Positions 1 through 45,060 of a stretch of DNA of 64,000 nucleotides are shown one piece after another. Under the pieces are notes generated by a model. That model was given only the letters and a program-made list of their open reading frames with translations, ran no database searches and had not been told where the DNA came from. Position numbers and translations under genes: made by a program. The DNA lies in contig NC_092568.1 of NCBI RefSeq assembly GCF_037975245.1, positions 2,666,001 through 2,730,000 of the forward strand, written 5' to 3'. Each line of letters starts with the position of its first letter. The first letter of the stretch is position 1. This stretch comes from Apostichopus japonicus. Lineage: Eukaryota; Echinodermata; Holothuroidea; Aspidochirotida; Stichopodidae.

Positions 1-253
1 CTGTTCCTTAGTTGCTTAGTGCAGTATATAAAAGCAGGAAGAATCCATATTATATTATAAATAATACTGTGTTTTAACTTTCCATGAACAAACTCCTTCC
101 ATGGTGCTCAAGGGTCACCTGCTGGTGCATGGCCCTTGTGGGAAGAGCGCTAACAAGCCCGTCTCTTCTCATGAGTGTCCCTGATGAGGATGTTGGATTC
201 ACCAGCTTCTTCTGACCTCTGCCGGCTGTCTCAAGGTTAATTGTTCCTAAATG

Positions 254-3200
254 TTACCTAGAATATCCTGCAGTGACAGCTGATCTTTTAAAGTCTGTAA
301 TGAATTCCTCCATGAATGTTCTGCAAATGAGTTCAAATGTTACAGTCAAGATATGAGTGCTTAGCTACCCAAAAATTACCACATCCCATTTTTTAACAAA
401 GATAGAAGAGTTTTGGGTTTCATTTTAAAGTATCCCAATTCGAGTCTTTTGTTTAATATTTCGATACACAAAGAGAGGAATGAGGGAGTTGGGATGGAGC
501 TTTTTTTTTAATATTATCTATTTTAAAATGCAGGAAGCTCAACAGTATCTACCTTCCCCTCAGCTTAATACCTCCATCCCCTCTCCCCCTTCTTCCTACA
601 TCCACCCCCTGTCCCCCTTCTCCCTACATTACCAACAAGCCTTGTACACATGTTTGTTCTTGTGTTGCTATTTCTGTCAGCTAAGACTGATGTTCTGGCT
701 GTCATCACCCTCTAAACACCTCCGCCACCCTCACATCCAATGAGAAACAAAATTCACTTTTTCAGGAGGACCATACAGGTAGTCTCTCCACACATCATCA
801 CTGCCCCCCCCTGGTGCCCCCCGGTTCCCCTGCCTTTGGTTCCCCACCTCTCCACTACTCTCCATCACCATTAAAACAATTAACTCACTTTGCTCTTACT
901 GCCATTTCATTGCCAGTCCATCTAGGACTGTACGGGCAGTCTCTCCTCACATCATCACCGTACCCCCCCCACTGGTGCCTCCCCCTCACCATTAAAACAA
1001 TTCACTCACTTTGCTCTTACTGCCATTTCATTGCCAGTCCATCTAGGACTGTACGGCAGTCTCTCCTCACATCATCACCGTTCCCCACCCCCCCCTGGTG
1101 CCTCCCCCTCACCATTAAAACAATTAACTCATTTTGCTCTTACTGCCATTTCATTGCCAGTCCATCTAGGACTGAACAGGCAGTCTCTCCTCACATCATC
1201 ACCGTCCCCCACCCCCCCTGGTGCCTCCCCCTCACCATTAAAACAATTGACTCACTTTGCTCTTACTGCCATTTCATTGCCAGTCCATCTAGGACTATAC
1301 GGGTAGTCTCTCCTCACATCATCACCGTCCCCCCCCCCCACTGGTGCCTCCCCCTCACCATTAAAACAATTCACTCACTTTGCTCTTACTGCCATTTCAT
1401 TGCCAGTCCATCTAGGACTGTACGGGTAGTCTTTCACCGTTTGGTTGAACGGTCGGCCAGTCGAGGTGGTATGGTACACAGACTGAAACACAAACTCTGG
1501 CTGATCTTTAGGAAAGTACGGTGGAATATGAACTGCAGAAGAGAAAAGAACGTCCAATTGTACCATTAATTGGTAGTTTCTCATGCATTATGAATTATGT
1601 ACCAAACAACTTGTGAAATTATCACAAGTATTTGTAGAACTAAAACACTTAAATCTCAAGGCAGCGTGTCGTATTTGCAAAGCGAATACAATCAAAATAT
1701 ACTTAAAAGAATATGTCAACTCGAGCGCATATAGCAAGATTCGAACTAAGATGCTATAAAATGCCCGTGGATTGGGTGAATAGAGACCTTGTCTTACTTC
1801 TGTAATGAAATGTAACCAACTGCTTTAAAGATAGAAGGGAAAATAAGTATCCATTTACCAATGTGATCATGTTGCTAGCCTTACTTGTATCACTTATTGA
1901 AAATACTCCCATTCGTTGAAATCATGAAGAACCACTAGATACTTGCATCTAAAGAATTTGTTAAAATGTTCATATTGACATACAAAACTTTGATCGAACT
2001 GGACGCTTCTGTCCTCAACATGAGATGAGATGCTACAAAAGCAGAAATTTAGCAGAGGCTGGGTGGACTGAGGAAGGGGGATGGGGAGGGAAATAGATTA
2101 TGTAAAGTGCCCCCCCCCCTGCTCCCCCTGATCTCTTCATTGCAACTGGATAGACAAAGTTATAAATACTTACCATGTAACAGAAAATGAAAATCTTGGT
2201 TTTCAAACAGAAATGATATCTGCTCGAAGCTCTCTGCATCGTACTCCAAGACAGACCTGATGAGAGATAATGTAAACAGAAGAAAAATAAATTAACTAGA
2301 AGACTGTTATGTTGCTGAATTCCTCTAAAAGTAAGTGAAAAGTTTGCAATATGATCTACATGATCAACACTAATATATTTACAAATTTACTGGTTTATTG
2401 TACACAATTGTTACTTTCAACATGAGATGTGCACATAGCTTTGCTACAATCACAGTCAGAAAGAAATTTGAAAGATATGAAATTAGTTGATCAACTCTGT
2501 TACATGACTAGAGATTGCAAAAAATCTTCAATTACCATGACCATGTAAATTTATTCCAAAAAGCATCATTTAGTTTGAAGTGGGTATGCTCAGCTGCTGT
2601 TAATAAAAATATATATATTCTTGGGTCAAGGTTTTTCCCCGACTTTCGGAATCTTCCTATGTTTCATGAAAAGAATACAAAGCTGCTTTTTTGTCCTCAG
2701 TATGGGATGTATAAACCTTTTTTACTTTTTAAGCCTTCAGTTTTGCATTAATTATTACATTTTCATTACTTAACACTCCCCCAGATTGATTGTTAGCAAG
2801 TCACATACTTCATTACCATAAAAATCATGAGAAATCATAATTATGTCATATCATTCCAAAACCACCAGTGCTTGTGCACAAATCTTGACTTATTTGTTGT
2901 TAGTTGAAGTGTTGAAGTTAGTTGAAGTTAGTTGAAGTGAATGTGATATACTCACCTGCCATAATGACTGAGAAAAGCTGCAATGTACTCTTGTCGTTTC
3001 TTAAATCCCTTAGCAACCAGGTCAATCTTGAGGTCAAGGAAAGTATGAAAACATCTTTGAACTGAACCAGATAATCTAATCTTCCATGTCTTGATATAGC
3101 TTTACCACTATTATCTTATCAGTCAGTTTAGCAAAGAAATAACTTCACATGTTCTGAAGTCATACATTAAGACCAAATGTATGACTTCAGAACACAAAGA

Positions 3201-6200
3201 TATTTCTTGAAACTCTCTGTTTGGTATGAATGAATACCCAGCAATCACCACCACTCCTAAAGGCTTGGTGTTTACATGGTAGCTTGAATTTTAGTAGTAT
3301 AATAAAGTCATGAGATGTGGAAACAAAATTAATACCAATTCATATTTTAAATTATGTTTGACTTAAAAAATTGATAACGCAGATCTGACATATATGCCTA
3401 CCAAGGTAGATTAATCAAGTTCTGGCATGGTGTAAATGTTTCTAATTTACAATCTATGTTGACCTTTATACTACGATATTCATATAATTTGCAAACATTT
3501 GATTCAGATATATGCAATGTGCAGAAGTCCACATGAGTGTAGGCTGACTTACCATATTTTCTAAAAGTTCACAGACTTGTGGTACGTAGGTGAATAAACA
3601 TCCATCGTTAGGGAAGACAGGAATCCTAAGACTGTTGGACCCACCGAGGGCGCTGACAGTAGAGAAAGACACCAAATAATTTATCACATCCCAAAGAAAA
3701 CTCCTATTGTTTGCATTTATATACAGATCCAAACAACCAAAGGTATATATGCCATTGTAAGCTATTCAATGTGATTCATTTAGTCGGCAAACCTTAAAAG
3801 CAGCGTGTGAGTTGCAACAAGAGATAATTTTTGATCCACTGGGTTAATCCCATTACAATTAAGCACTTTGTAATTAATGAAACTGTCCAATGTAATTTCC
3901 AAATGAACACCCAAAATTTTGATTTTTAAAAAGTGGATTTCAGTGTTGGTTTGAACTTGCAGCGTGATCAAATACTAGGAAAACAATAGTTTATTCAAAC
4001 AGGTTGTGTCAGGATTAACAAAGAATCGTTAATAAATTACTAATAAGCAAGCTTTCAGGGATAAAGGCTTTGTGACATCATTATTTTATCAACTACCATC
4101 ACATTATACAGTACTTGATACACATCCTAAAATTGCTACAAGCTGGGAATGAAATGCAAACCACTGCTTAAATTATCCTTTGAAAGCTGTGTGTGTTAAA
4201 CATGATTCTGGTCACTGCTTGATTCTTATAAGCCTTTCAACCCTTGATGTAAAGGTTTGAGAGATCTTGCAACATCCAGAGGTATGCAAGGGGAGGGGGG
4301 TAAGGAGTGGATTGCTAGAGTTGAAGAGTGAGTACTGAAAGGATGAAGCTTATATCACCCGATGGTGGGTGCCACCTTTTGGAAATACATAACGTAACTT
4401 ACACCATTGTACTTTGCTAATCATAGGAGGCAGGAGGAATTGGCAGAGGAAGGTGAGGAGAGGAGAAGGGGAGACAGTAGGGCAGATGGGTAGCCTAATC
4501 TATCAAAAACTTGAATATTTACTTTTTCAAAAGCAAGAGAATAAGTAAAGAGCAGTGGCGGCGCCAAGGGGGGGCTTGGGGGGGCTTTAGCCCCCCACTG
4601 AAGTAGTCAGCCCCCCATTAGCCCCCCAACTGAAATAGGCACAAAAAAAAAACCTCATTGAAACAATATAGCCTACCCAAATTTTGTCAGCCATAACGCA
4701 GTGCTACAATGGTCAATGGAAATTTTGATGAATTTTGTTCTCATACGGCAATGTCGTGTGCGTTTAACAAACAGCGTGTATACAGACTAAAACAGGAGTT
4801 GTGTCAGAGAGCGCGATATAATAATTGAGCAAAGGAATTGGATCTTTCACAGCAGGTAATATTTTAGTGATACGAAAACTGTGAATTGGTTTCTTCCATT
4901 CTAATTTGACTAAAGTTACTCACAAAAAAATGCAGATTTTTGGAGAAATTTTCAGGTGACAAAAGCCTCGCTAAATGCCACCATTTTGCATGTAGGCCTT
5001 TCCAGGATTGGGAAAAATTTCAAAAGGGGAGGGGGCACCCCCTCCCCTTATACCCCTCCCCCAGGACGGCGATCACTCAATCTTGTAAGCCACCCAAAAA
5101 ATTGGCTCAGCCCCCCCTTAGCCTCCCCAACTAAAAATTCCTGGCGCCGCCACTGGTAAAGAGCATATTACTTGGAAATGGATTTTCATATGATTGAATG
5201 TAAACAAGAGAACTCTCAAAACAATAATACTACAAGAAATACTAAATCCGGAAGCAAAAACTATTCAAATGCAAACAGTTCATACTGACTTCATCAAATA
5301 AACTTGGTCACAATGTGTCTTAGTCAAAGTCAAATAAAACAAAAACAAAATAATCCAAACAATAGCTTTATTGTGTTTTATAGCTTTTAATCTGTTGTAT
5401 TAAAACAAAAGAGTTTTCTCTTACTATTCTACACTAGGTGACAGGTAAAGCTGTGGATACATCTTCTCGCCTGGATGTTGATACGTAACCAAGAGGATAG
5501 CCATATCTTCTCCAGGACTTTCAAGCTAGACAGAAGACATATAAATAAAGCAATGACAATATCAGCTTGTTTCAAATTCAACCTAAACTTACTGATTCTC
5601 TCCAAACGTTCAATAAATGCTGGTCTCAAATCAGGAAATTGAGGTTAAAAACATTCTTTTCTTGTCGTGGCACTTCTTTCCATTCTAAATTAATTGAACG
5701 TCATATGCCCATTTGAGATTCTATATGAAAATAGTAAAATGGTGGCTGATATGTTAGCCGACAGATTTTGGAGGACCAATATGTCACTAGTTTCATCCCT
5801 TCAATGGGAATGTGATATATATTTGTACAAATAATATGAACATTCATCAGGCTAGGCCTCTATCATGGCTGTACAAATGACCAATGTGAGTGAATATAGG
5901 GTGGCGATGTTGGTGGAAGGCCTTGTCCCAAGACTGAGGGAGACAGGGATCAAGACTGTTCATAATGTTGTAAAGTGGACCAAAAGATGCAAACATTGGT
6001 TTGGGGGGAGGGGGGGGAGGTAGGGATTGGATTAATATTTGGAGTTTTGAAATCATAACTCAGCAGCTATCTGTCAATGTACAGGCTCCTATTGACCTAA
6101 GTGCCATTGTTGTTAGGTAGGCATCAGCTTCCCTACAAAGCTCTTGGAGATTAGAGTATGGTGCATATGGGTACATGACCTACAGTATGTTAACATAAAT

Positions 6201-9200
6201 AACATGTTTTGGATGAAACAGACCTAGAGATAACTAACTTTGGTAAATTGGAATGATTTTGAGAAAAACAATAGTTGACAGTTGTGTTCTAAATAATGAA
6301 TACTCAATAAGCTGATTTGAGTCAGGGTTATTCCCCAGGAGATAAACGATGGAAATTAAAACAAATCAGAGGTGATGCTGGTGGTGGTGGTGGTGGTGGT
6401 GGTGGTGGTGGTGGAAGAGGAGGTTAGATGGGTATCTCAAAAGAACACAAATTTTTGCCCACCATTTAATGTCAATTTATGTTGAATTCTTTAGTCTTTC
6501 ACTTACCTTTGTAAAATATTCAGGTATTTCAGAAAAGTTCACAGGTAGCCTTATCAAGAATTTTACCACCGTTTCCCACGTTTGCTGTTGTAAAAGATAT
6601 ATAAAAAAATTCATTGGACTAAAATTTTGAGATATTCATAGTGCTGACAGGCATGAAAACGGTTATGAACAGTGGTTTAGGTCTATCATAGCGCTGAGAG
6701 GTACCAAATTGTACACAGGTTAATAAATAAGCTTTACTCAGTACTGCATAGGAGACGTATAAGGAAGGTATAGCATACATTAGTATGAGAAAATTCTTAA
6801 AATATCTAAACATGGTACATCCATCCCTCCTTGCATCTATTTTAATTGCTTGTGATATTCTAAGTTAAAGGGAAAAGGTAATCAATATTTAATATTCAAT
6901 TTTTTTATATTTTTTTTTATATATATATATATTTTATTTATTTCTATCTTTGTTTGTCAATTAAACAAATACTGTACAAATTGTACAACACTGCCACCAA
7001 CCATTGGGTTCTTGATTTATTACTTACAGTAGCTCTTGTTAACCTGAAGAATGCCCCATAGACAACCTCCAAAGAATCTTTATCTTGAAGATGAGTCTAC
7101 TGAACGCTAGAAGAAACTGTTCACCTACAAGCTATGTATAAGAATCTCACAACAAACTGAACTTTTGTGATAAAAGGTAAATGTTAACAACACAAGAACT
7201 ATTTACATTTGTTTCCATCCAAAAGCAAGACAAAAAGATACCATTTATCTTTAAGTTTTGAGGTAAATAAATATGATTAGCATTGTGAATAAAGTAATTA
7301 ACATCTTTGGCAAGGGAACTTACCATCATCCTTCTATGGGGCATGTGTACCTCTACTTCAGTGAATTTCCTTGTATTCATGAGTGAGGCATATTCAAACT
7401 GAAGCCTGGTGTGTTGACTGATCTCCTCGATTTGGAAGGCTTTGTAAAACTCGATTAACTCACAGATGACAACCTTGAGACTTAAAGGATCGTCTGGATC
7501 CCACTTGACTAATGACTGAGGAAATCGGAAGAGAAGATGACTGTTAAGTTATAAAGAAGCTAAAATAGGCAATTTCATAACTTTATGGAAATTTCAAACA
7601 TTTCCAAAACTTAAACAGTTGGTGTCATTCAAATGTAAAATAAATCTAACATCTTGGTTAAGCAGACCAAAAAATTTACTTTTGATAAAAAAAAAATAAA
7701 AAAAAAATATCATCAATTAGCCAACTTTGCAAACGAAATATTAGGACAGAGGTTATCACTTGATTTGGCCAAAGTTGGCATTCATTTGTAGTGTTTATAC
7801 TGAATGCATCAGTATTAAACTGGAGCGAGAAACAAAGTATCTGGTGGGATGTAAATTATATATTTTTGGGTTTATATATAAGTTTAGCTATGAGACACAG
7901 AGCTCTAAATACTTTGACACATTAACATTTTGTTTTAAAAAAGCTACAAAAGAGTCTTCTTGCTTTTGTCCTTACTCTTATTTCCTCTAGAGGTGGTACA
8001 AAGTCATTGTCAGCCGGTCCAAAGATGAAATCTGGGGGATCCTCGGGATACATTGAATTGAAAAGAACCTGCCCTGAAAATTGGAAATGAACAAAAATGT
8101 GAACAATGTTTCTTTTGAATAACAAACGTGAGGAATGAGTTTTTATATAGTACGTGAGTTGTCAAAATTCATGTGATGGAATATCCTGAAGCATGACTTC
8201 ACTCAACTTCACTCTTATATCTGTATTTTGCTGCACTAGCAGAAAGGGATCCAAATTCAATCCTCGACCAATTTTATATTTTCTGCTGTATAGTTGTGAA
8301 ACAGTAAGGCAACTTGAATAAACATGCTGTCGATAACTATTAACCAGAATAATTGCTTCCCTGTATATGAGAGATATTACTGTTCATTAAATTCTCTCTC
8401 TCCTTCTAATGATTATTGTTGAATGAATTATAACCTGGACTTTGCAAGTAAATCACAATGATCTGATAATATTAAACTAAATTATGAAATACTTACATGA
8501 TAATGTATGAGTAGCAAAGGGGATGTTGACTTGAATCCTATCATACAACTTCTTGCCATCAATAGAATTGCAGCTGCAAGGGGAAAAAATTAGTTTACGA
8601 GATGAAAATGGGGAATTGTTACTAACTCATTTCCATATCTACATTCCAATGATGCATTCCATTCCATGGTACAGGGCCCATGTCACATATAGACTGATAT
8701 GTATGTCATTCATATAATACAAGAACTAATTTTTAATGCACATACCATAATCTCATATAAAGGCAGAAGCAATCATTTATACACCCTCTTCTTGCCCAAT
8801 CCGGACTCGGAACAATACCACTATATAATACTCGAAACCCATGGGAATTGTTCGTCTCATTATTACTTTCTTATTGTCCTAATACTTCTCTAAAATGAAC
8901 CCAGAGATATACAGTACTGTACCCACCCATCAATAACCTCATCTCTCGCATACTAACCTTTCATCATCCATTTCATCTATTCATGTTCACCAGACACTAC
9001 ATATTTACTTTTGTTTCTAGTCACATATGGTTAGTCAGCTCTTTGCTATAGGATTGGAAACTGTTTTATGTTTGGGGAATTTCAGAGCTGTCATATCTGC
9101 CTGGGTGTGAGGAATGTGTTTTTATTCTTTTTCCAGTAAGTTCACTATATTCAAATTCTTGTTAAATTTCAGTTACTATATTATGTTAGTGGCTAAAGTT

Positions 9201-9710
9201 TGTTTGTTACCTGCTCTCAATATATTGTAAACTTTGAGAAGCCTCTTTCTATTTGAGTTCTTTTTGTTGGTGGGGGTCACTGTTACAGTATTCACTAGGC
9301 AGAGGCCCTAAGTCTTTGCTAAGTGTTAAGATGTGTGGTTGAACAGGGAAAATGTATGCTACGGTTAATGTTCGTGGATATGGTTATAACCTCTTATAAG
9401 GGGAATTAAATCGGATAGAATTTTGATACGCACTACTTAAAACCATCATCCGCTTAAAGTGAAATAGTATTTAACGACATGACAAGCAATTCCATCTGCT
9501 TGGCTTTGGTCACACCCCTGTCTCATACCTATGACATGTGTACCAGTTCTGCTAATCGTACATAAAGACAACGGAGTGGATAGCTTACCTTGTTCGTGGC
9601 TCAGTAAGATGAACACGACCTCCTAGAACTCCTATATCATTATTTTCTTGGAAAGCAGCAATGAACGTTGCGATCTTTGGGTGAAAATCTTCCAGCGGTA
9701 ACCCTGTCAT
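254..9710 (-). CDS. BABAM2: BABAM2 (BRE), BRISC and BRCA1-A complex subunit; 11 coding exons, complete
   Basis: The product is the scaffold subunit that joins the BRCC36 deubiquitinase arm to MERIT40 in the BRISC and BRCA1-A complexes, which remove K63-linked ubiquitin. Minus-strand coding exons, in order: 9589-9710, 8497-8573, 7976-8073, 7324-7515, 6507-6584, 5425-5525, 3553-3652, 2956-3026, 2174-2256, 1379-1532, 254-320. All borders have GT/AG and the phases join without a break, giving 1143 nt or 380 residues; human BRE has 383. Recognisable pieces are [11 protein letters not shown] (about residues 75-85, first UEV-like domain), ALGGS and YVPQVC in the middle, [13 protein letters not shown], then [11 protein letters not shown] (311-321) and [13 protein letters not shown] (343-355) in the second UEV-like domain. 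The last exon ends in TAGYSR and is recognised by alignment to the human F-x-x-F-x-x-x-F tail; it is the least conserved part. The start ATG has an A at -3. No AATAAA is seen below 254, so the 3' UTR probably runs out of the window. Confidence 0.95.
866..1430. repeat. 123-bp tandem repeat that duplicates the BABAM2 exon 10 / intron 10 donor junction
   Basis: Units start at 866, 987, 1110, 1233 and 1356, with lengths 121, 123, 123 and 123; the last copy is the true exon end. A degraded partial unit lies at about 766-803. On the minus strand each unit carries the final ~50 coding bases of exon 10 (reading [15 protein letters not shown]), the GTGAGT donor, and about 60 bases of intron ending in a C-rich stretch (plus-strand view). 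Four of five copies keep GT at the donor; the unit at 1110 has AT instead. The intronic units carry an insertion of about 12-13 bp relative to the real exon, beside the ACGGTGA sequence. The long plus-strand reading frame here exists only because 123 is a multiple of three. Confidence 0.92.
3150..3194. repeat. Perfect 19-bp inverted repeat with 7-nt loop in BABAM2 intron 7
   Basis: The left arm TGTTCTGAAGTCATACATT (3150-3168) and the right arm (3176-3194) are exact reverse complements, separated by AAGACCA. At 45 nt this is shorter than a usual pre-miRNA. It may be the remnant of a small palindromic insertion. Confidence 0.85.
4553..5155. mobile_element. Non-autonomous hAT-type MITE in BABAM2 intron 6
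   Basis: The ends are CAGTGGCGGCGCCA and TGGCGCCGCCACTG, perfect inverted repeats of the CAGTGGCG type common in hAT elements. The direct repeat GTAAAGAG flanks it at 4545-4552 and 5156-5163, the 8-bp target duplication expected for hAT. The 603-bp body is C/G-tract rich (CAGCCCCCC-type motifs near both ends) and has no transposase frame. A related fragment lies inverted at about 48566-48740. Confidence 0.92.
6380..6414. repeat. (GTG)n microsatellite
   Basis: About 11 uninterrupted GTG triplets in BABAM2 intron 5. Confidence 0.9.
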
Positions 9711-9759
9711 TTTGTAAGTTATAACTGAGACGCGAGCTGTACCAATTCAAGGAAATACA

Positions 9760-11365
9760 CACCGGTGTGAAGTTAGTTACTTATTCCGCGTTCCTCATTC
9801 GACATTCACGAATAAGTAACTGCAGTACACATGATATACATTTATGAAAAGCCGAATGCTTCCGTACGAGAATATCAAGAATTTTTAGTCGAAAAAGTAC
9901 ATTTTTCCAAAGTTAATTTGGGTTTAACAATGGGTCATATGAAACTTTCAAGACAGTGTAGAAAATTACCACAATGCGTCTTCCCGGTCCAAACAGTGCT
10001 TGACCAATTCGCATGACCACTTCACCATCACTTATTAAATATATGTAACGGAGGCACGAAAATTAGGCCCTAATAAATCCTGCACGCCTTGGACCACCTA
10101 ACCAATGTTTAACATGAACTATATCGACAATGTAGAAGAGTACCATAATACGTCTTGCCCGGTCCAAAGAGTACTTGACCAATTCAAATGACCACTACAT
10201 CATAACTTCTTAAATTAGTGAAACGGGACTACGAGAAAGCTTTGGGCCCTTATCCATCCAGCACGATTTGGATCACCAAACCGATGGGTCATATGAACTC
10301 TAAAGACAATGTAGAAGAAAAACATAATGGGTCTTGCCCGGTCCAAAGAGTGCTTGACCATTTCAAATCACCACTACATCATCATGCACTTCTTAACTTC
10401 AATACAAAGGAACCACGAAAAAGCTTTGGCCCCTAATCCATCCAGCACGCCTTGGATCACCAAACCGATGGGTAACATGAACTCCAAGGAAAATGTAGAA
10501 CAGCACCATAATGCGCCTTACCCGGTCCAAAGGGTTCTCGACCAATTCAATTGACAGCTACACCGTCACTTCTTAAACGAACTACAAAGGGACCACGAAA
10601 AAGCTTTGGACCCTAATCCATCCAGCACCCCTTGGATCACCAAACCGATGGGAATCTTGAACTCGAAGGACATCGCAGAAGAGTACCATAATGCGTCTTG
10701 CCCGGTCCAAATTGTGCAATTCAAATGACCACTACAACATCACTTATAACATGAATGTTACGGGACCACGAAAAAAATTATGGTACTGTACTACATTGTC
10801 ATTAGAGTTCAAAAGACCCATTAGTAAGGTGGTCCAAGGCGTGCTGCATGGTTGGGGATCAAAGCTTTTTTGTGGTCCCGTTACATTCATTTAAGAAGTG
10901 ATGATTTAATTAGTGGTCATTTGAATTGGTCAAGCACTCTTTGGACCGGGCAAGACGCGTTATATGGTACTCTTTTGAATTGACATTAGAGTTGATATGA
11001 CCCATTGGTTGGGGGTCCAAGGCGTGCTGGTTTTTATTAGGGCCTAAAAGGGTTTTTTTCAGGTCCCGTTACATGCATTTAAGAAGTGACGATGTAGTAG
11101 TCATTTGAATTGGTCAAGCACACTTTGGACCGGGCAAAACGCATTGTGAGAGTTTTCTATATCATATGACCCATAGATAAACCCTAAAATTTGGCTTTTC
11201 CACGACCATGATCTTGAACATCTTGTAAGAAAGCATTCGTCTTGCCATTGGTGTTACGTCGATACCATTGTCGAATAAGTAATTTATAGGTAGCAGTTAC
11301 TCATTCGCGAATGTCGAACGAGGAACGCGGAATAAGTAACTAACTTCACACCGGTGAATATCGGT
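9760..11365. mobile_element. Foldback-type element: terminal inverted repeats with internal tandem units in both orientations
   Basis: The 63-bp ends (9760-9822 and 11294-11356, outer motif CACCGGTGTGAAG) are inverted copies with about 3 mismatches. The direct repeat GAAATACA flanks the element at 9752-9759 and 11366-11373; the right side has 9 extra bases (AATATCGGT) before it. Inside are about five direct units of 174-184 bp, marked by CCCGGTCCAAA near 9984, 10158, 10337, 10520 and 10700. At least two inverted units follow, marked by TTTGGACCGGG near 10940 and 11125, with a turning point near 10790. No transposase frame is present; the short frames inside read through repeat units. The layout resembles foldback elements of Drosophila and the TU elements described from sea urchins. 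The element starts 50 bp upstream of the BABAM2 ATG. Confidence 0.85.
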
Positions 11366-11375
11366 GAAATACACA

Positions 11376-14300
11376 TTTTAATGAACAAAGTGTTATGTAG
11401 CCAGATTCCTATTCGTATTGTTGCCAAGTCACCGCTGTAGAGGCATGACGACAGCGGCGGAGGTAATCACGGGGTCCGGCAGGTGCGAAAATATCCCAGT
11501 GCAAAAGTGGGGGACACACACCTCTGAGGGTATCTGCTAAGCCAGCAGATAATGAAAGCCCGTAGTTTTCGCTAAGTTCATTTCCAGTTTATTATATTTT
11601 TAGTATGTTGAATTTCAAGATTCTAGACAGGATATTTCACCAGAGTTTTGAGACAAATACATATTTTGTGCTAAAGCCTGTGTGATAAAGCTGCTTGTCA
11701 TGTTGTTGTTAAAACGATGTTACTCATTATACTTCAAGTTCTAGTTTAGTATAGTAATGTACATATGTTTAAAAAATATTTTATTTGTGATTAAATTACC
11801 TGATGCCAAGTACAGGTCGGTAGCCTGCAGGAGGGCGGGCAGCTTCCCCTTGAGATTTCCACTTCCTTAAAGAAACTTGGCTTACGATAATATGAACGCC
11901 TGGACAGGATGCACTATTTCATTTAGTGTTAGCAAAACTTCATTTCTTTTTATACAATTTCATTAGTCAGTACAATAGTGTGCAACCTCAAGATTATATG
12001 CACGTATTGTACAGGAACGGCGGTCAAAGGAACACAAGGTATATTTTCACCGCGCATCATGTATACGCACGATCACGGATGCGATGACCGGACATGCGAA
12101 AGCTGTTTAGGTTTCCAAGAGTTTTTTTTTTAGAAAATAAACGTAGAGATCCTCCTAAGATTTAACTTCTAATGGCATCAGTGGTACCACTGTTCATAAA
12201 TATATTTATTACGATATTATGTACGGTAGGCATATCATTTTTCATTGCTAGCCCCTATATCAGTGCCCCAATGTTCTAACTAAGAATACTGAGGCACAGT
12301 ACCCTAAACGGCCCACCCATTCATCTCATTTGCCCCCCCCCCCCAGTAGGTCCCTTTATGGCATGTAAAACAAATAATGATAACACAACCTAACAATTAC
12401 TTAACACCTAAATTCTTCGTATGGCTTCCCCTCAGCATAGATAGGCTACGGCTATACAATCAGAATGTCCTAGCGGGCTTTTATATCTTCAATCAGCAGT
12501 ATTATTTATTAAATAAGCACGCGTAAAGTTTCTAGTTTCTTTTCCTATGTTTAGGTGTATTTTGGTGGGGTTAGGCCGGTGGGGGTTCAGTGTGGGTTTT
12601 TTTGTTGGTGGCCTTGATAAGCTCTGCTTCTGCCAGGTCTCCCCCACTTCACATCATTTGTATATTTGTTTAATTATTATGGAATGTAGTGTATTGTATA
12701 TTCAAGTGTTATATGTTCACTTTGTTTATGTTATGGTGAAGTGGAAATAAATAGTTTTCAATTTCAATTTCAATTCAATTTCAATTACCATTGTGTAAAA
12801 CAATTATTAAAGCAGAGTCTATAAAGGAACGTAGAGTCCTTTTACCTTCTTTCTTTTTTCTTGAAGTGTCAATTTCTTAAACATGAGGGCTCAAAGTAAA
12901 GAATGTTTAAATGCAGCTTATAAGGCATGGGAAGTGCCATTTCCGGCAATCTGGGACGAATTATTGGCACCAACCGATGGTGGTACTCCGCTTAGATAGT
13001 GTCATGATGGACCCACTAAACATTTCTAAAACAAGGCCCTGGTATATATACACATAAAATCATCATTGTATAACATATGGACGATACATCATGTTTCTCG
13101 ATGGTCCTCAGCTACCCCACTGAACCCCTAGAGTCCCCGTATTTCGGTGGGTCTTTTCGGGAGCCGCTTTGGGAGCCCCCGTTTTTCTGGGCTCTTTTCG
13201 GGAACCCCGTTTTTGGTTTGTTTTGTTTTTTAATTAAAGCGGTCACCCGTTTTTCACACGAGGTACGGTTATCGATGTTATATGGTTATTTATAAGTACT
13301 GCGTAAACAAGTCGTAACACGTTAGATGACACATGCATCTAATTTTTTTATCTGTTTGGGAGTCTAATCGAATCCCACAACCTTTTTTTCCATTTTTCGG
13401 GATACTCATGCATGGCAGTACATTAGTTCCACATTACATGGTACACAAACTGCAGAAGGGAATGTATACACGTATACACGCTAGGATCCTAGGGCTCCCG
13501 TTTGTAGCCAGTGATAGTACCAAACCAGCATTAGTTGCACGATCTGCCGATGCACTAGAATGATTTTCCTACGTTAACTGTCCAGAAAACTTACGTAACG
13601 GTCAAGCAGCACTAATTTAGATGTGTCTAGAAGAAACCGCGCATTGGCGCCTATGTCCTTCAAGATGGAAAGGGGGGGGGGGGGGGGTTGAACCTTTTGA
13701 AGTGTGACTTTTTGAAGTAGATGAAAGACCTAAAGGAAAATATAACATTTGGCAGAATGGCGGTGTCAAGAATATGCATGCATCGATTTTACACGAAGTT
13801 ATAATTTCATTCGGTCAAGACATTAGCACGATCAATCAAGAACTCATTCGAATGATGACAAGAACGTAATTTAAACGTTTCGAAATTTCGGATATGCCGG
13901 CGTTTTGTAATACATACTAACTTATGACAACACGTGTCTGGGGATGAAGCGTTTCAGAACATTATCGATTAATCGTAGCCCGCCACGGAATGTGAGCCGT
14001 AAATCTATAGCAGATTGTCTTTGCTTGATCTTATTTTCAGTATATTACGTAGGCCTACTCAGTTCGGTTTGGTTAAATTGTCAGACATTGATGAATAAAC
14101 GCAGAAAGTTGCTTTGGCGCTTGTTTTGTGGTGGTTTCTGTTACAACCGTCTTAACAATATACATAGGCCTATTACTATTATTATTATATATAGGCCTAT
14201 TATTATTATAAAGGATGACTTTAGACACAAAATCCAGTGCAGGTTGTATGTAAATTTTGAGAAATGACCCTTTTAACATCTGAAGTTTATCCAATAAAGT

Positions 14301-15733
14301 GGCTGGAAATAGAATAGTAAATCTAACACAAAGGTCATCAGGTCAGTTCCTCAGATGCCACAGAAGAAAACCTAAAATAATATTTTGTTAATACGTTATA
14401 AATTTGTCAAGGACAAATTATGTTGTCAACCAAGGATTCTCCAGCTGTCGAAGGAAGGTGTCAATATCTTGCAACTTTTAGAACAATGAAGTAATGAACA
14501 AAGTGTACAGGACACTTTGGGAGATCATTTCCTTAAAGCTGAGAGTCATTTTTAGCTGATTTGATCATATTTGGGCTATTATAACCCCATATCAATGAAG
14601 TTTACAAGTTTGGATAAAACGTCAAATTTCGTTTCAAATATTGGCGTCAATAATTATAGGATTTTATATATTTGAAGATGTTTTTATACATTAGATTAAC
14701 AGCAATATGAAAAGTGTCTGTCTGACAAAACATTCGACGATTGATTCGAATCTGTTAATTTCTCTCTCTTTTAACGATCATTTGGAACAAAACAATCCAT
14801 AAAGAAAGATTATAATCCTACTTTGACTTAAACTTATATGTAGCCCAAATTTGGTAATAGTTGTCGAGTAAACACACACATACACAAAACTTTGGAACTT
14901 TCAAGAACTTCTCGTTTATTTTTAATCATGTTTTTCTTTTTACGAGTATACATGGGGTATATTACAGATATGTGATTGTTACAGTAACTCAATTCATGAA
15001 AAACTTACACACACACAAACACACATACATTCAATAATACTATAAATAAAAGATAAATCGATTTTGAGAAGTTGACACGTAGTATAAAACATATATTCTA
15101 CTATGTTATGTTATGTTTTGTTAATAAAAATTCAATGAGCCCCCAACTGTTTGCATATCATACAATACGGTATAAAATATAATTTCCCTTACAATATCAG
15201 AATGTACATTTTTCCCCACCCGCAACCCATTCATGACGGAGGGAACATTAAAAAATACAACATGTATATTACGTAAATTAAATAAGTTTTTTAATTTAAA
15301 GTTAATACTTTGCAAGCGTGTTAAAATTTATAGGAACAATTATACGCCAAAATTAATGAACCGAATAACGAATGAAAAATTACATATAACTATAATGGAA
15401 TAGTCACTTTTATATCCTTATTTTCCTTACCAATTCCTGATAAGACAACATCGCTTATATATGGTAAACATATATCATTGCACGAACTAGCCCGACATCA
15501 TTGAAACTAAATATTCACAGATTAATGTGTCCAAATATAAAGGACTATGTTTGCATAAACCTTGAAAGATACAGAATACCGTATACTGGACGAAATTGCT
15601 ATGGTCAATTCTAGTAATACTTTCTCAGGCTCCCCTCATATTCCCCTCCCCTCTCATCCCATACCATACCACCCCCCCCCCACCTCCCCTCCTCACCCAT
15701 ACCTTTTTAGGCACGTCTTTCTTCAACGTTTTC
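11376..15733. other. Gene-poor interval between BABAM2 and the Arf-like gene
   Basis: No recognisable coding exon. The region holds a GC-rich hairpin island (11430-11570), a GC-rich patch at 11800-11875 with exon-like borders on the minus strand, a LINE tail (12547-12786), and a short duplicated GGGAGCC/CCCCGTTTTT motif at 13127-13225. It also has a poly-G tract at about 13672-13687, TAGGCCTAT palindromes in an ATT-rich stretch (14165-14210), and CA-rich microsatellites near 14873 and 15010. Confidence 0.6.
12547..12786 (+). mobile_element. 3' tail of a non-LTR retrotransposon (LINE)
   Basis: A 3'-UTR-like block (GATAAGCTCTGCTTCTGCCAGG) is followed by GGAAATAAATAG and a (TTTCAA)n-type microsatellite tail at about 12756-12786. 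Short simple-repeat tails are typical of CR1/L2-like LINE ends. No reverse transcriptase reading frame is seen upstream, so only the 3' end is present. The family assignment is inference. Confidence 0.5.
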
Positions 15734-16033
15734 TTTTAATCTCATATACGAGATGAAAGCTGAGAATGGATAGGATATATATCTACAGGCATAAATAACA
15801 CGAGAGTCAAGGTGTATGTTCACACTTAATGCGTATGACGTCATCAGTAACATTCACTCACTTATATAAACTTTTACTGATGAAGGAACAGAAGGATGCA
15901 GAGGCGTAAAGAATCCTTTTTACTATCCCTCCACCCCCCCCCCACCCCTGCTCTAACCCTTCAACCTCTTCCTCCCCTTCGAAGGCAATGCACCTCTTTG
16001 ATAATGATTGGTTGTCTGCTGGTTTTCACGTGT

Positions 16034-17927
16034 TCAAGATCTCTCTTTCTTGAAAGTTTTAAGCATTTTAGAGAGCATTTCCATTCCTTCAAATAGCCCC
16101 TCGCCTGTTGTCGCACATGTTCCTTGGATGGACCACGGGTTCCTGCGAAAGTTCCTCAACTGAAGGTTTTCGATGATTTTGGATGGACCAACAGCTCCTG
16201 TTTTGTTAAGAATGAAAAGAGTCTGTTTTTTCGTGCTGAATACAAGGGGGGGGGGGCGAGGTGGCTGACTACCATCTGGTATCACATGCCTATAGCCATA
16301 TTGTGGACCGTCAGGGACCGATACCATCCATACAATGAAGGAAAAATATTTTGCATGGTGGATTTGATATGTATTGATTTCATTCCGAAAATGGGGAAGC
16401 GGGGAAGGGGCGGGGGCCGCCAGGGGTGGGTCGGCAAAGCAGTCTCCTTAATTAGTTGCATGCAGACTGGTACAATAATCTCCATATTAGAAGGTTCTTG
16501 ATCTTTAAAATGCAGTTTATGTATTGCAGAACATTTAAAAAGGTTGTGGTACCTGGTAAGTCTTGCTTGTTCGCCATGACAACGAAGGGTATATCCCTAA
16601 TAATGCCGTCATCTGTCAGAATTGCTTCTATTTCTTCTCGGGCAATCTTAAATCGTTCCACGTCAGTGCTATCCACAACAAATATTAAACCTGTAGAAAA
16701 TCAATGCAAATTTGTTGTTCTATTTTATACCAAAGATTTTAAAAGAAAGATTATCGATCTAAAGAAGCGAAAAATATGTAAAAGAAAATGTTGGTGTCTA
16801 ATTATTTATGACTTGATCATCAGAATTGGTGAAATTAATGTGCTTAAATTCCTTGGTGTAACTCGATGGCCCTCTATTTCTTTGCTAGATAAAATCAAAG
16901 CAAAATAATTTTCTTCCACTTATATAGTCATGTTAATGACCCTTCATTACCCCCTTCCTCCCGTTACCAGGAGAAAAATATATGTGTAGAGAATATATGA
17001 GTATCTAAAACAATTCTCTGAAGTCGACTCATTTAAGTATACCTTCCGCTCCGATGTAATAATGTCTCCATAGCTTTCTGATGGTTTCTTGGCCTCCAAC
17101 ATCCCAAACTGTTAAAGTTAAACCTGGAACTGGTGTGATTTCTTCTACATTAAAACCAATTGTTGGTATCGTGGTCACCACTTCATTCAACTTTAACTTG
17201 TACATAACAGTCGTTTTCCCTGAAAAGAAAAGAAACCTCTGCCTAATTGATGTATCCAGTCACTCGAATGATATATTAACGGTAAGAGTTGACTTGGAAA
17301 CATGTAGGCCTAATGGGGGCGGGCAGTAGTTGAGTGACCACTTATTTTACTGTCCAGAATTTTTGGTTGCAATACTGATGACCTGCAAATTAAGGCCGAG
17401 AACTATTTTGTCAATTTTCCCGGATTGCACAGGTACGTAATACGACAGTGTATTATAATATGGCTACGTGGGAAGTTCGCTTTGAAATCACTCACGAGTA
17501 CGCCAAAACTGGAATTATTGCCTTGAGTTTGCTTATTATACTTAATAATGGATCTATGCAAAACACTGGGGCCTTATAGGGTGCCCGGGGAAATAAGTGT
17601 CAAATTATTTGTTTTTTATTGTAAACTATTGGAAATATGTGGTCTCAGAACCCGGCGGACAGCTGACACTCAACGCCACTGATTCTGTCACAAATTTATC
17701 ATTCCCCCCCCCCCCCCACCAAGTGTGCTGGTTAGGTAATTGCCCAAAAATTGAACTGAGTGTAATCAGTAATTTTGAGTCTTAAATGACTTAAAAGAGA
17801 ATTTAACTTGGAATAACTTAAATCACTTACCTGCACCGTCAAGTCCGAGAAGAAGTACTCTGGTTGGTGGTCCATAGGTAAACCAATCATTGTACAGTGA
17901 AGACAGTTTAGCTAACAGCAGACCCAT
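16034..17927 (-). CDS. Arf/Arl-family small GTPase, 4 exons, complete
   Basis: An ADP-ribosylation-factor-family GTPase, expected to be N-myristoylated and to act in membrane traffic. Exons: 17831-17927, 17043-17219, 16553-16690, 16034-16197. All introns are phase 1 with GT/AG ends, for a total of 576 nt or 191 residues (classical Arfs have about 180). Seen: Met-Gly start for myristoylation, P-loop GLDGAGKT (28-35), switch I PTIGFNVE (51-58), WDVGGQ (71-76), NKQD (132-135) and TCATTGEG (164-171). The start lies in an amphipathic helix-like [12 protein letters not shown]. It differs from classical Arfs by an inserted FTYGPP before the first strand and a lysine-rich KTFKKERS end. The subfamily is not settled: the GLDGAGK loop is as in Arl1, but the switch regions are Arf-like. 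A possible ATTAAA poly(A) signal lies at 15735-15740 (minus). It is divergently paired with Rab4. Confidence 0.93.
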
Positions 17928-28126: not shown

Positions 28127-31100
28127 GGGCCATGCCCCCTTCATTCCATGCGATGAGATCCTCCACTATAACCTTCAATGTTACCCAGCTCTCTTCATCT
28201 CTACATAAATGTTACTCTTGCCAGCAAGTTACGATCTGTAAGAAAAAAAAACCTGGTTATCATTGTTGTCAGTGGGTATTTTTATTTTATTTTTTTTCTC
28301 AGTTCATTCCTGCTGCGAAAAAAAAATATGAGAAGAAAACTCCAGATGATTTTCCAGTAGTGGTCTGATCTTTTTAATGTTTCTCACTTACATAGACTGC
28401 CCATGGTCAGTGTTTTGATAAAGAAAGATGTATATTTAAGATATTTCTGGCTAGATCTTTCAAACAGAGATTTACACATTGTCTAAGGCTCTCACCTTGA
28501 GCTGGCTATGTGTCGTAATTGTTTCATGCGCTAACCCAGTCAGTGGTGTGAAAGAAACACTTGGTATATACCTATCCGTTATCACGTGATCGACGCCATC
28601 ATTGCGGGCCGTCCGAGAATAATATCTCTACAAAGCTAGAATGCAGAGTGCAGAATTTAGCAAGCTGTGAAGTAGTAATTCCCCTTGTCAGTGTTCCAGC
28701 CATTTTTAACAAACATGAGCACTTGACATAGACCGACTACGGTTGTAGCTGTGGTAAGCCTAGCTACTCTAGGCTGATTTTAATTCCAGCTAGAGCTGTT
28801 AGTGGCTTTAATAGTGATGAGTGTATTGCTCCCAGTTATGCTAGAAAGTCAGTTAATGGCCACTGATGCTCCAACTGTCAGAAAGCATTTTACAACATAC
28901 ACTCGGAGGCACTTTAGCTCACCTAGACTATTAATCCTCAAATATGAACACATTTCAATATCTGGAAAAATCTGGAGGAGTCGTAACTACCAGGAGAAAT
29001 GGACTTTTGAAAACTTGGAGCAATTTTTAACGTAAAAAAATTTGGGGCCAATCTCGATGGACTTTTAAACTGTTGCATCTGTGGGCTATTAGTGTGCATT
29101 GATGGGATGAAATGAAAGACTTGACAGACCTCATACAGAGCGTTGCTCAAGTAAACTCGATTGAATCTGCTGCAAAGTGAAATACTGTTATGGAAGGCAA
29201 CCAGCTACGTATTAACGAAAATGATGTGCCGGTCGTCCTTATGTCCGCTTATTTTGGTTTTTAGTCTTATGCAATCTGTTACTACAGTTGTGCTACACGA
29301 TAATTTGTTTGGATCAAGAGATGGCTCATGTTAACTCTTGAGTTAGCAAGCTTCAAATCTCTGTAATATTGTGATGTGGATTAATTTATGCTCATGTATA
29401 GAAAGTTAGAAACACTGAAAATGTAAATCAAGCTAAAAAAGTTATGTGTAAAGTAATGCCCAGTTGCATGATTGCTGTTTTTCTTTGCAGTTTAAAAAAA
29501 AAAAAAAAATTCATTGGATATCTCTTCGAGCAGACTTCCATATCACATGTATCTTCAATTCTGTAAATATTTGTTCGCTTTCTTGCACAAATTGTTTCAT
29601 AAAAATGACCTTGGAGATACATCTTTAAGTCTGTATATTAACTGCGGGAGGATATCTGAAAGAAAAGTTCACCAACCATGTTGGGAACTGTACCACATTC
29701 TTTCAATGTTTTTCAGAGAGTATTTAGCGCTCACTTTACAGCTAGGTCAATGTAAAGCATGCTGAAATTACTGGGACATAAATCGGCATGTTGTAGTGAT
29801 TGTATGGCCGTGTCTAAAAAAGACAAAAAGTTGATTTGCTGTGTTTCATAGAACTAAATACTACTGTCAAGAAGTGTTAACCAATAAAAGAAACTTTTTA
29901 TTGGGGGGGGGGGGGGGGGTTCCTTCATTGTTCAAATGAACAACATCCAAATGGAATGAAATCTTTACATCAAAACTTTCATCAATTTTTATTTTTACAC
30001 ATCTTACTTGACATCTCATTTGTTGCAGTAGAATAAAACTCCCATTATTGGAGCATTATTTAGGGCTACCTTTTCTGCTCCTGAAATAATCTTAAACTTT
30101 ATAAAATTCTATCCAAGTCTTATACATTGAGCTCAATGGGCCGTTTAGCAAGCAGTCAGTGTTGTGATTGCAGTTATAATAGCAGTGCTTGTGTGTTTTG
30201 GTATGAAATTCCATATTGTGACTAATCTACAAAAGAAATTATAAAAAAAAAACTTGTATTGTAACATTAATGTCATCAAGAGGGTGTGACATTGCTTGTC
30301 CCGGTTGGATATTTATCGAAAGCGGACAACAGTTAATATTGGGACTTTATAATAATAATTAATTCACTTTAAAAGTGAAGCAATTGGACGCATGACTTAG
30401 TGGGTAGCATACTTCAGTAACAGACTGCCATATTCAGTTTGTATCATCTAGAAAACTTCTGAGCATGGAATTGTCCCAAGAAAATATGAAATATATAGAT
30501 ACTGAAAACTGTCAAAAAAGTGTTGGAAATTGTGTTGAAATTTTTGAAATGTGACCATTTTGGCATATATCTAAAAGTGTTTGTGCCATCTGGTAGTCCC
30601 TTTAAATAAAACATAAGAAGCCGTTTGTATCAAAGATTTTGTCAGTTATTTCTGTCCATCATATGGTTATTTCAATCATGTTTGAAACATTTTTAAATGA
30701 TTAAAAAAAATCTTTTTATGTAATTTATAATGAACACTAAAGTTTTCATGACAATTGGAATTGAGGTATTTTCTTGTGTCTGGGCATAAGACAACTATTT
30801 AATTATTACCATTATTCTTATTATATTGTTTAGGTGGGAGGGGTTCCGTGTTCTTTTGTTCCCCTTTGTGTAGTCTGATATTTTTCTTCATCTTTTTATA
30901 CCTTCAGGCTAAATATTACTATTTCTGTTTGTATATTGCGCATTTGCAACCTCTTCACATAAATATTTATTCATCATAACATTCTCGTTCACCCAATTAT
31001 CCACCACCCTCGCTAGGATATATGTTCTTGTGTTCTTGTCTGTGAAGGATATATACAAAGGGAGTGCATTCTTTTGTATGTAGAAGTTCACTCTCCATGG

Positions 31101-31139
31101 GATATATCCCTTACAGTTAAGCTTAACTGTGATCATATG
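28127..31139. other. Rab4 3' UTR and following intergenic DNA
   Basis: No recognisable coding exon follows the Rab4 stop. The stretch is AT-rich with several AATAAA hexamers (29883, 30032, 30605) and no family-like protein in any frame. Where the 3' UTR ends cannot be fixed from sequence alone. Confidence 0.5.
29881..29922. terminator. Candidate Rab4 poly(A) signal inside a palindrome, followed by poly-G
   Basis: AATAAA at 29883-29888 lies in the inverted repeat CCAATAAAAG / CTTTTTATTGG (29881-29904), so the hexamer is present on both strands. A run of about 17 G follows directly. It is 1.76 kb past the Rab4 stop. Other AATAAA copies at 30032 and 30605 could be used instead. Confidence 0.35.
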
Positions 31140-31147
31140 GTGATTCT

Positions 31148-33085
31148 CAGTGGCGGAGATTTCTTGTCAGAAGTGGGGGGGTTGCAGGCCATTGATGAAA
31201 TAAAAAGTCATAACTGCTGGCTCACTATATAAGTGGAGCGCCACCATAAGTTGGCGCGAAGTGCACAAGAATTTTTTGGCAAATATTGCCTCCCAGATTG
31301 CAGTAAATGGCACTGCCCAGGCCTTGAAAAGCTGGATTTAACCAGGGGTGTATGCAGGATTTTCTAACCCGGGGGGCGCGTATTACTATCTAAGCGGAGC
31401 GCCACCATTGGTTGGCGCGCAGCGTACAAGAAAATTTCTGGTTTTGGTACCCCCAGATCACCGGAAATGGCACTTGAAATGGCTTGAAACTGACCAACCA
31501 TATGTACACTTTTGCCTGACAACCAAGTTTTTTCCAAATACTTTTTTCTCATCTATAACCTTTTTGAAGATTGTCACCAGTCACACATCATGTTCGACTT
31601 CATCACATATCCTGTGGATCATTGCTTTTGTAGGTGATTCTTCATCACGGCCCACAATATCCGTCAGCCCCACTGTTCAGAATTTGAAAATTCACAATTC
31701 TCGTGAATAAATTCACTTCAAAACATACCCATAATGTTGCACAAAATATCATCTATGGACAACCGATATAGAAAAACCTCCTTCAAACCCTAACAGACGG
31801 GTCAAAATTGCACGAGTATGATGAAGTATGATGAAGAATGTTGGTTAGGGAATTTTCGAAAATTCAGACGCTACTAAAAAATTTCGTTGAAGGAAATAAA
31901 AAATATACCAGATATTTCCGAAACCGAACACTACACACATCGACAGTTTTGACCATGGGCGCAGATCAGTCTTGGATAATGGTGGGGACGCGTGTCTGTT
32001 CTATGACACTATCTAAGCGGAGCGCGACCATGGGTTCGCGCGTAGCGTACGATTTTTTGGGGCAAATATACCTCCCAGATCGCCGGAAATAACACTTCCC
32101 AGACCTAATGATGCTCCTAAACCTCCTTAAGTTTTAGATCTCATTGCTTAGAAATTTAGTTTGGAGAAATACATGGGCGTCTGCAGAAAGAAAATCAGGG
32201 GGCAAATAATCCAAGTAGACTTTTGTATATACGATGGGTCTGGGGTCCTCTCCCAGAAAACAAATATAGACTGCCGCAAATGCGATTTCCGTCCTATATT
32301 TAACAACTGTGGATAAAATACAATAAAATGAGAACTGCTGCATGTCATTTGCACAATGCTGGATCAAACTGCGCCAAAGTTCCATACAGGGGAACTTGAA
32401 ATGCAAAGACAAATTGGTGGGGACACGGTATATCATGTCCCCACTACTGAAAAAGTTTGTGGGGACGCGTCCCGCTGTCCTCACCAGGATCTGCGCCCAT
32501 GGTTTGGAGGCTGTTTATCGTGGAACGCCATTTTCATGCTTACTGATATGATGTGATATCTGCTGTTTGTTTACAAATTCGAATAATTTTGTCACTGTTC
32601 CTCTTCCTCTTCCCGTTTTCTTGCCGTATTTTCTACTCCATCCTTTGGTCCTTTTCTCTCTTTCTTCTTTTTCTTTTCCTTCCTTCACCTCGTTGAAGTT
32701 GGCAAGTGTATACAGTTCCAAAGCTATTCAACAGCAACAAAACGTTATTTTGTGTATTTCTGTTGTGGGGTGAAGTTAGCGCTATGAGCTACAAGGTCCA
32801 ATGCGCAAGGTGGGGGAAAGGGGCTAGAAATAATGTGTCGGTCAATTCTAACTCGGTTTTCGGTCGTTAATTGTTGATGTAGCCTACCAGGTAAAAGGTT
32901 GAAATGACTTTAACAATTTCAAATTTAATAATTTGATTTATTATGCCATTTGGAGCACATAACATAGGCTATAACAGAACATTACTGGCAAAAACTAGGG
33001 GGGGTTGATTGTGTGGGCCAACCCCCCCTCTTCAAAAAGTGGGGGGGTTAAAACCCCCCCAACCCCCCCTGTTTCTCCGCCACTG
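31148..33085. mobile_element. Composite non-autonomous hAT element, copy A (1938 bp)
   Basis: The ends are CAGTGGCGGAGA... and ...TCTCCGCCACTG, with C/G-tract sub-terminal blocks. The 8-bp target duplication GTGATTCT is exact (31140-31147 and 33086-33093), as expected for hAT. The body has no transposase; frames up to 120 codons are repeat read-through. It holds three diverged ~105-bp repeats starting near 31223, 31384 and 32007, marked by CTATCTAAGCGGAGCG. It also holds an inner pair of inverted ends CATGGGCGCAGATC (31953-31966) and GATCTGCGCCCATG (32488-32501), read as a nested element. Copy B is nearly identical. Confidence 0.92.
31953..32501. mobile_element. Nested inverted-repeat element inside hAT copy A
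   Basis: It is bounded by the perfect 14-bp inverted repeat CATGGGCGCAGATC. GGGGACGCGT also occurs just inside both ends. The same block lies at 34601-35158 in copy B, so it was in place before the host element was copied. Its class is not clear. Confidence 0.6.
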
Positions 33086-44236: not shown

Positions 44237-45060
44237 TGAGCTACTAAGTTTCTCGGTACTATTATCTTAACTGGAAAAATCATATTTCATATATCTGTAG
44301 TAAAATTGCCGGTGCAAATGGAATTATATATAGATTAAAACATGTTCTTCCGAAAGATACATTATTGACTTCATATAATACTCTAATACTTCCACACCTG
44401 AATTATAATTTACTTGCTTGGGGAGGTGCAAATAAATCACTGTTGCATAAATTATGTAAACTGCAAAACCGTGTAGTTGGTGACATTTGTATTGCCCCGT
44501 ATATTGCTCACTTGGGTCCTCTTTTTAAGAGTCTGAACGTCTTAACTATTTTTGATTTATTTGATTATCAGCTTGGTATTTTTATGTTTAAGTTTAATAA
44601 TGGAAATCTTCCTCTTATTTACAACTCATATTTTCATTATAGATATAATCTGCATCATTACAACACTAGATCGATGTATTCTCTAAACATTCCATATTCA
44701 AGAACTAGACTTAGACAGTCCCAGATTCGTTCAAGTGGTGTTACTCTCTGGAATTCACTCTCATCTAATCTCACTGAATTGAATATTACTTTATATACTT
44801 TTAAAAATAGGTTGAGAAAAAAATTGATGTTGACTTCATATTACATGTAATTATATGCATATTTAGACCAATCTTAAATGTTGCTGTTATTCTTTTGTAA
44901 TTAGCACATTGCTAATTATTTTTTTAATTTCATTTCCTTTCTTTATTGTTAGGGGTCAGACTCGAAAAGCTTTGCTTATTCTGACTCCTCTACCCATCAT
45001 ATGTATATATAAACTGATTATTGCATATAATTTATTATATTTAAGTATATTAATTTAATA
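44237..45060 (+). mobile_element. 5'-truncated LINE with reverse-transcriptase C-terminus, 5' UTR intron of CCSAP
   Basis: The open frame up to 44850 reads the end of a non-LTR reverse transcriptase. It has SYNTLILPHLNYNLLAWGGA, LQNRVVGDI, HHYNTRS and SGVTLWNSLSSN, then a Lys/Arg-rich end and a stop. In the same frame but upstream of the first ATG, from about 44270, LNWKNHISYICSKIAG continues the match. A break lies before that (about 44262). The 3' UTR holds an inverted repeat, AGGGGTCAG (44951-44959) with CTGACTCCT (44981-44989), then an AT-rich tail. It is antisense to CCSAP. The domain order fits CR1/Jockey-like LINEs; I did not fix the family. Confidence 0.88.

Follow-up and report, generated by a model that had tools for sequence, protein, structure and literature searches.

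Can the end of a coding exon be copied, together with its splice donor, several times into the following intron, and what becomes of the gene's message if it is? This question is raised by BABAM2 (BRE), a gene of a DNA-repair complex, which is carried by Apostichopus japonicus on the minus strand of the window (i.e. the whole 64,000-nt stretch of DNA analysed here).

The BABAM2 locus and its repeated exon end

The gene was identified by protein similarity. An upstream exon of BABAM2 matched the Pfam profile PF06113 with 56.4 bits as compared to a cut-off of 25.8, and a search of the genome with this profile found matches in two exons only, both of this locus. The end of the spliced protein matches residues 313-380 of the human BABAM2 chain 9smn_C (E 3.5e-21), and the chains that it matched bear the name BRISC and BRCA1-A complex member 2. 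The C-terminal peptide of the spliced product, when searched alone against Pfam, gave no match. A tblastn search with the human BABAM2 protein produced matches at 8572-8501 (weak, E 3.3), 8092-7994, 7518-7357, 6611-6507, 5522-5427, 3651-3550, 3029-2958, 2252-2175 and 1569-1378, the last of which ends in the exon 1532-1379. As residues 1-43 were unplaced, the exon numbers are uncertain and this exon is termed the penultimate coding exon. The acceptor TTTTCTCTTCTGCAG lies directly upstream of it, and its 3' end encodes a 16-residue peptide followed by AA of the next codon. Splicing from 1379 to 320 keeps the frame; reading on past the true donor meets an in-frame TGA at once (AAG TGA, after AVRAK). 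The gene, exon, true donor, last exon and stop codon put forward in an earlier note on this DNA, including the immediate TGA, were all correct according to the protein match, tblastn and the in-frame splice. The features of the locus are listed below, with donor distances given relative to the true donor.

1379-1532, minus strand: penultimate coding exon of BABAM2, 154 nt (9smn_C match, tblastn, acceptor and donor)
1377-1378, minus strand: true donor GT, 9-mer AAA/GTGAGT (splice to 320 preserves the frame)
254-320, minus strand: last coding exon, (K) plus 21 residues and stop (protein match; in-frame splice from 1379 to 320)
1309-1431, minus strand: unit u0, true exon end (53 nt) followed by 70 intronic nt
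1186-1308, minus strand: unit u1, donor 1255-1254 intact (+123)
1062-1185, minus strand: unit u2, donor 1132-1131 (+246) lost, with A for G at +1
942-1061, minus strand: unit u3, donor 1009-1008 intact (+369), one base deleted from its exonic part
785-941, minus strand: unit u4, donor 888-887 intact (+490), intron part of 104 nt, 157 nt long
641-784, minus strand: possible decayed sixth copy or original intron flank (22-nt exon match, 4 mismatches; suggestive only)

TRF delineated an array at 858-1432 with a period of 123 bp, 4.7 copies, 94% matches and a score of 1006. Its tandem units belong to the class of about 10-200 bp present in several copies (i.e. a minisatellite), and each joins the end of the coding exon to the start of the intron (i.e. 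53 nt of exon, the donor and 70 nt of intron). The 123-bp array on the BABAM2 exon-intron junction is real and far beyond chance. Units start at 1431, 1308, 1185, 1061 and 941, with spacings of 123, 123, 124 and 120; they begin with GACTRCC in the exon and finish with GGAGA in the intron. Past the true exon end come four units, each with 52-53 exonic nt, a donor and an intronic part of 68-71 nt, or of 104 nt in u4. Both TRF and the alignment of units agreed with the earlier description of a 123-bp minisatellite that reiterates the BABAM2 exon donor in four units of about 50 coding bases, a donor and about 60 bp of intron. The array end had been placed at 866, which is too short as the last unit reaches 785 and the exon similarity extends slightly further.

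Four of the five donors are AAAGTGAGT, and the live donors of u0, u1, u3 and u4 are identical as 9-mers (AAA/GTGAGT). The true donor is at 1378 and intact copies are at 1255 (+123), 1009 (+369) and 888 (+490), while the donor of u2 at 1132 (+246) has been lost by a change of GT to AT (AAAATGAGT). More than one unit carries an intact donor, as in repeats of the IFI6 type. The aligned units confirmed GTGAGT at three of the four extra donors and the loss of GT at one. Of the distances proposed earlier, +123 for an intact donor was right; the lost donor is at 246 and not 369, and the intact donors placed at 246 and 492 are at 369 and 490.

Further repeats and frames were observed. A second array in the window (9930-10775; 184 bp x 4.7 by TRF) belongs to a dispersed satellite, unlike the 123-bp array, with at least 194 matches in the genome, many of them overlapping and spread over many contigs, and about 77-82% identity among the matches listed (best 40 of 336 candidates). 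The plus strand has an open frame of 292 codons that crosses the 123-bp array in antisense (691-1569) and is probably a by-product of a stop-free 123-nt unit, this length being a multiple of three. Also on the plus strand, a 200-codon frame at 44248-44850 of the window resembles by eye the end of a LINE reverse-transcriptase ORF. COX1 is intact on contig C35, whilst contig C29 has several ordered, frame-broken pieces of it and, about 16 kb away, a second partial copy (14745-16086 and 30842-31219, minus strand); the C29 copies may be a head-to-tail concatemer of mitochondrial DNA, or else an insertion in the nuclear genome. When the mitochondrial COX1 was translated under tables 4, 5, 9, 13 and 14, tables 9 and 14 produced the conserved residues expected, as judged by eye; as table 14 continues past the stop codon, table 9 (the echinoderm code) fits. 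The frames after COX1 are putatively nad4L and cox2, and ARAGORN detected no tRNA in that stretch.

Divergence, origin and persistence of the array

The array is probably a young, locally born and nearly neutral minisatellite in BABAM2 that causes at most minor unproductive splicing. In a search of the 671.6-Mb genome (671,581,487 bases in 35 contigs; best candidates scored, simple repeats skipped), it matched only itself and an adjoining 45-nt piece (767-811). Origin from a dispersed satellite was not supported, with only the BABAM2 locus found among the best candidates.

Divergence was counted against u0. The exonic parts of u1-u4 exhibited 6 substitutions in 211 aligned sites plus one deletion, confined to the first 12 nt, and the first 35 intronic nt of u1-u3 exhibited 3 changes in 105 sites. 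For u4 only the exonic part was counted, because a length difference of 34 nt upsets the alignment of its intron part, in which 7 and 4 substitutions plus 3 gaps appeared. Exonic and intronic changes (6/211 versus 3/105) did not differ (Fisher P = 1.0), although the changes are few and the power is low. At the u1-u3 rate (13 changes in 366 sites), the four extra donors, with 8 GT positions, would be expected to carry 0.28 changes and one was observed, these sites being too few to reveal conservation. Similarly, the 36 sites of the extra 9-mers contained 1 change as compared to 1.3 expected, again with little power. The "conserved donors" of the earlier note find no backing, as a signal of selection, in the GT counts or in the like divergence of exon and intron, weak as this test is. 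Intact spare donors are what a young array gives, and there is no sign of selection on the donors in this weak test.

All five units agree over the final 41 nt of the exon, with 0 of 164 sites changed in the extra copies (P 0.003 at the u1-u3 rate). This could be read as constraint, but homogenisation is the simpler reading because intron positions +8 to +35 are likewise unchanged in u1-u3 (0/84, P 0.05). When the units were read by codon, five of the six exonic substitutions altered an amino acid, one being common to u2, u3 and u4 and perhaps a single event. The change in u1 is silent; u2 has Y to C, P to L and Y to F; u3 has Y to C and a frameshift; and u4 has Y to C. The altered codons fall in a stretch matching human YPYSPRW. 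Selection on the copied codons was not supported, the copies having mostly amino-acid changes or a frameshift, and the extra copies are not maintained as coding sequence.

That the array is an assembly artefact, or an expansion private to the sequenced animal, is highly improbable. It was seen in one genome, and its units contain long G-runs, which are hard to sequence. The units also differ by substitutions outside the G-runs, and, should the genome be the PacBio HiFi assembly described in an excerpt of PMC10344927 (mean read 14,729 bp, 64x), single reads span the 0.6-kb array.

A young, local origin could have begun with a tandem duplication that fused an intronic sequence to a similar one within the exon, which would explain why the unit includes the exon end with its donor and 70 nt from the start of the intron. 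Over 22 nt spanning the unit boundary, the exon and the downstream flank agree at 18 positions, and this similarity either seeded the first duplication or indicates that the flank is an old decayed copy. For the putative decayed copy at 784-641, the alignment score was reached by 0 of 500 shuffles versus u0 and 2 of 500 versus u4; once the boundary match was removed (i.e. from 767), by 6 and 18 of 500, respectively; and among real background pieces of the window, by 1 of 873 (u0) and 6 of 988 (u4). The array may then have been expanded and shuffled by unequal exchange, seemingly involving the true exon end. This end appears to exchange with the array, as u0 is no more distant from u3 (2 substitutions, 2 gaps) than from the adjacent u1 (4 substitutions).

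Arrays of four or more copies with a period of at least 30 were surveyed in 16 sampled 10-kb pieces. Five arrays, in four of these pieces, cover 3,616 of 160,000 bases (i.e. about 2% of 160 kb, two of the five arrays touching the end of a piece). The excerpted text of PMC10344927 gives 19,828 genes for A. japonicus, from which, with the mean lengths, about 100,000 introns were estimated. With this cover and this number of introns, minisatellites placed at random would fall on many exon ends. Selection would then have to purge most exon-end arrays, and those that spare the first copy could persist.

Donor choice and the fate of the message

Predicted structure offers no reason to prefer the true donor because the predicted openness of the spare donors is equal or higher (0.59 for the true donor; 0.60, 0.71 and 0.75 for u1, u3 and u4). 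Hiding of the spare donors by RNA structure was rejected on the same predictions, and an Rfam search of window positions 1-12000 gave no structured RNA match. Exon definition would be expected to favour the true donor, whose exon measures 154 nt, given a mean exon of 194 nt and a mean intron of 1,286 nt in A. japonicus (PMC10344927, excerpted text). The first donor would yield the normal message, and the spare donors would be tolerated because they lie within the intron. Exchange in register would restore a proper exon end, unless a dead donor were brought in.

Use of a spare donor would expose the TGA directly past the true exon end, and the message would be destroyed by nonsense-mediated decay (NMD). 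With a live spare donor in use, the stop would lie 119, 365 or 486 nt upstream of the final junction. Under the 50-55 nt rule, should it hold in echinoderms, a stop farther than this from the last junction triggers NMD, and the UPF1 and Mago families have matches in the genome. As the stop lies 119-486 nt upstream of this junction, and so beyond 50-55 nt, messages from the live spare donors are expected to be NMD substrates and not to yield stable protein without the last 21 residues. The net effect would be a small loss of product and no regulated short protein.

The earlier note had assumed that a spare donor truncates the protein after AVRAK and drops the last exon; decay is more likely at these distances, and the last exon would remain in the spliced message, though untranslated. 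Regulated C-terminal truncation, by which the spare donors would make a stable BABAM2 lacking its last 21 residues, is very unlikely: the TGA does directly follow AVRAK and the lost segment does align with the human C-terminal region, but the stop is 119 nt or more upstream of the junction and the donors have no extra conservation.

Alternatively, the spare donors could act as a brake through unproductive splicing, competing with the true donor such that copy number sets the loss of BABAM2 message to NMD. G-runs occur in every unit (lengths 5+11, 5+7+5, 5+8+4, 5+8 and 4+4+6+8 for u0-u4), and G-runs downstream of a donor are splice enhancers. The 9-mers are identical at u0, u1, u3 and u4, the predicted structure leaves the spare donors unhidden and, in an excerpt of PMC4526556, repeat units of IFI6 are reported as used donors. 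Such a brake is nonetheless unlikely, one of the four extra donors being dead and the donors being without sign of constraint, though by a weak test. It is also rather doubtful that the exon end is self-repairing. With the coding end and a functional donor present in most units, copy number would then be free to vary without harm to the protein, and the count of live spare donors would tune the loss of BABAM2 message to NMD. If this were true, the array would provide a heritable, fast-changing dosage setting among animals, and the dead u2 donor, if moved first by contraction, would produce a harmful allele.

Relation to known multi-donor repeats

Repeated splice donors are known elsewhere. In single duplications of a 5' splice site, the duplicate donor and its exonic flank compete with the original; the layout in BABAM2 is the same and differs by having four extra copies in an array. 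According to the title of a 1995 paper by Turri, Cuin and Porter, a minisatellite reportedly supplies multiple splice donors in human IFI6 (6-16/G1P3). The IFI6 unit is about 12 bp and essentially a donor motif, whereas that of BABAM2 measures 123 bp and includes 53 coding nt, and the spare donors of BABAM2 are candidate donors. In both cases a minisatellite offers several donors to one transcript, two downstream repeat units of IFI6 acting as splice donor sites in the excerpted text of PMC4526556. Tandem repeats at exon-intron boundaries that alter splicing were surveyed in human segmental duplications (PMC2812944, in excerpt). These are likewise minisatellites at such boundaries with the ability to alter splicing, but have a mean unit of 30 bp repeated 4 times, lie in recent primate paralogues and include reported novel introns. 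With these two precedents, a satellite arising from an exon junction is less unusual than the earlier note supposed.

In an excerpt of PMC3039753, the repeat is a start site and not a donor in all of the 12 places covered, of 13, and an excerpt of PMC12771815 contained nothing on donors in tandem repeats. No report of the BABAM2 array in sea cucumber was found in the part of the open-licence literature covered, nor was one on competing duplicated donors found in open-licence papers.

The BABAM2 array is a further case of a multi-donor minisatellite, with a long unit that holds coding sequence. It constitutes a natural competing-donor experiment, in which four identical 9-nt donors with near-identical exonic flanks differ mainly in position, and donor choice within it would bear on the weight of exon length versus nearness to the next exon in an echinoderm. 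The array also indicates that a minisatellite can occupy the end of a coding exon and yet leave the reading frame intact.
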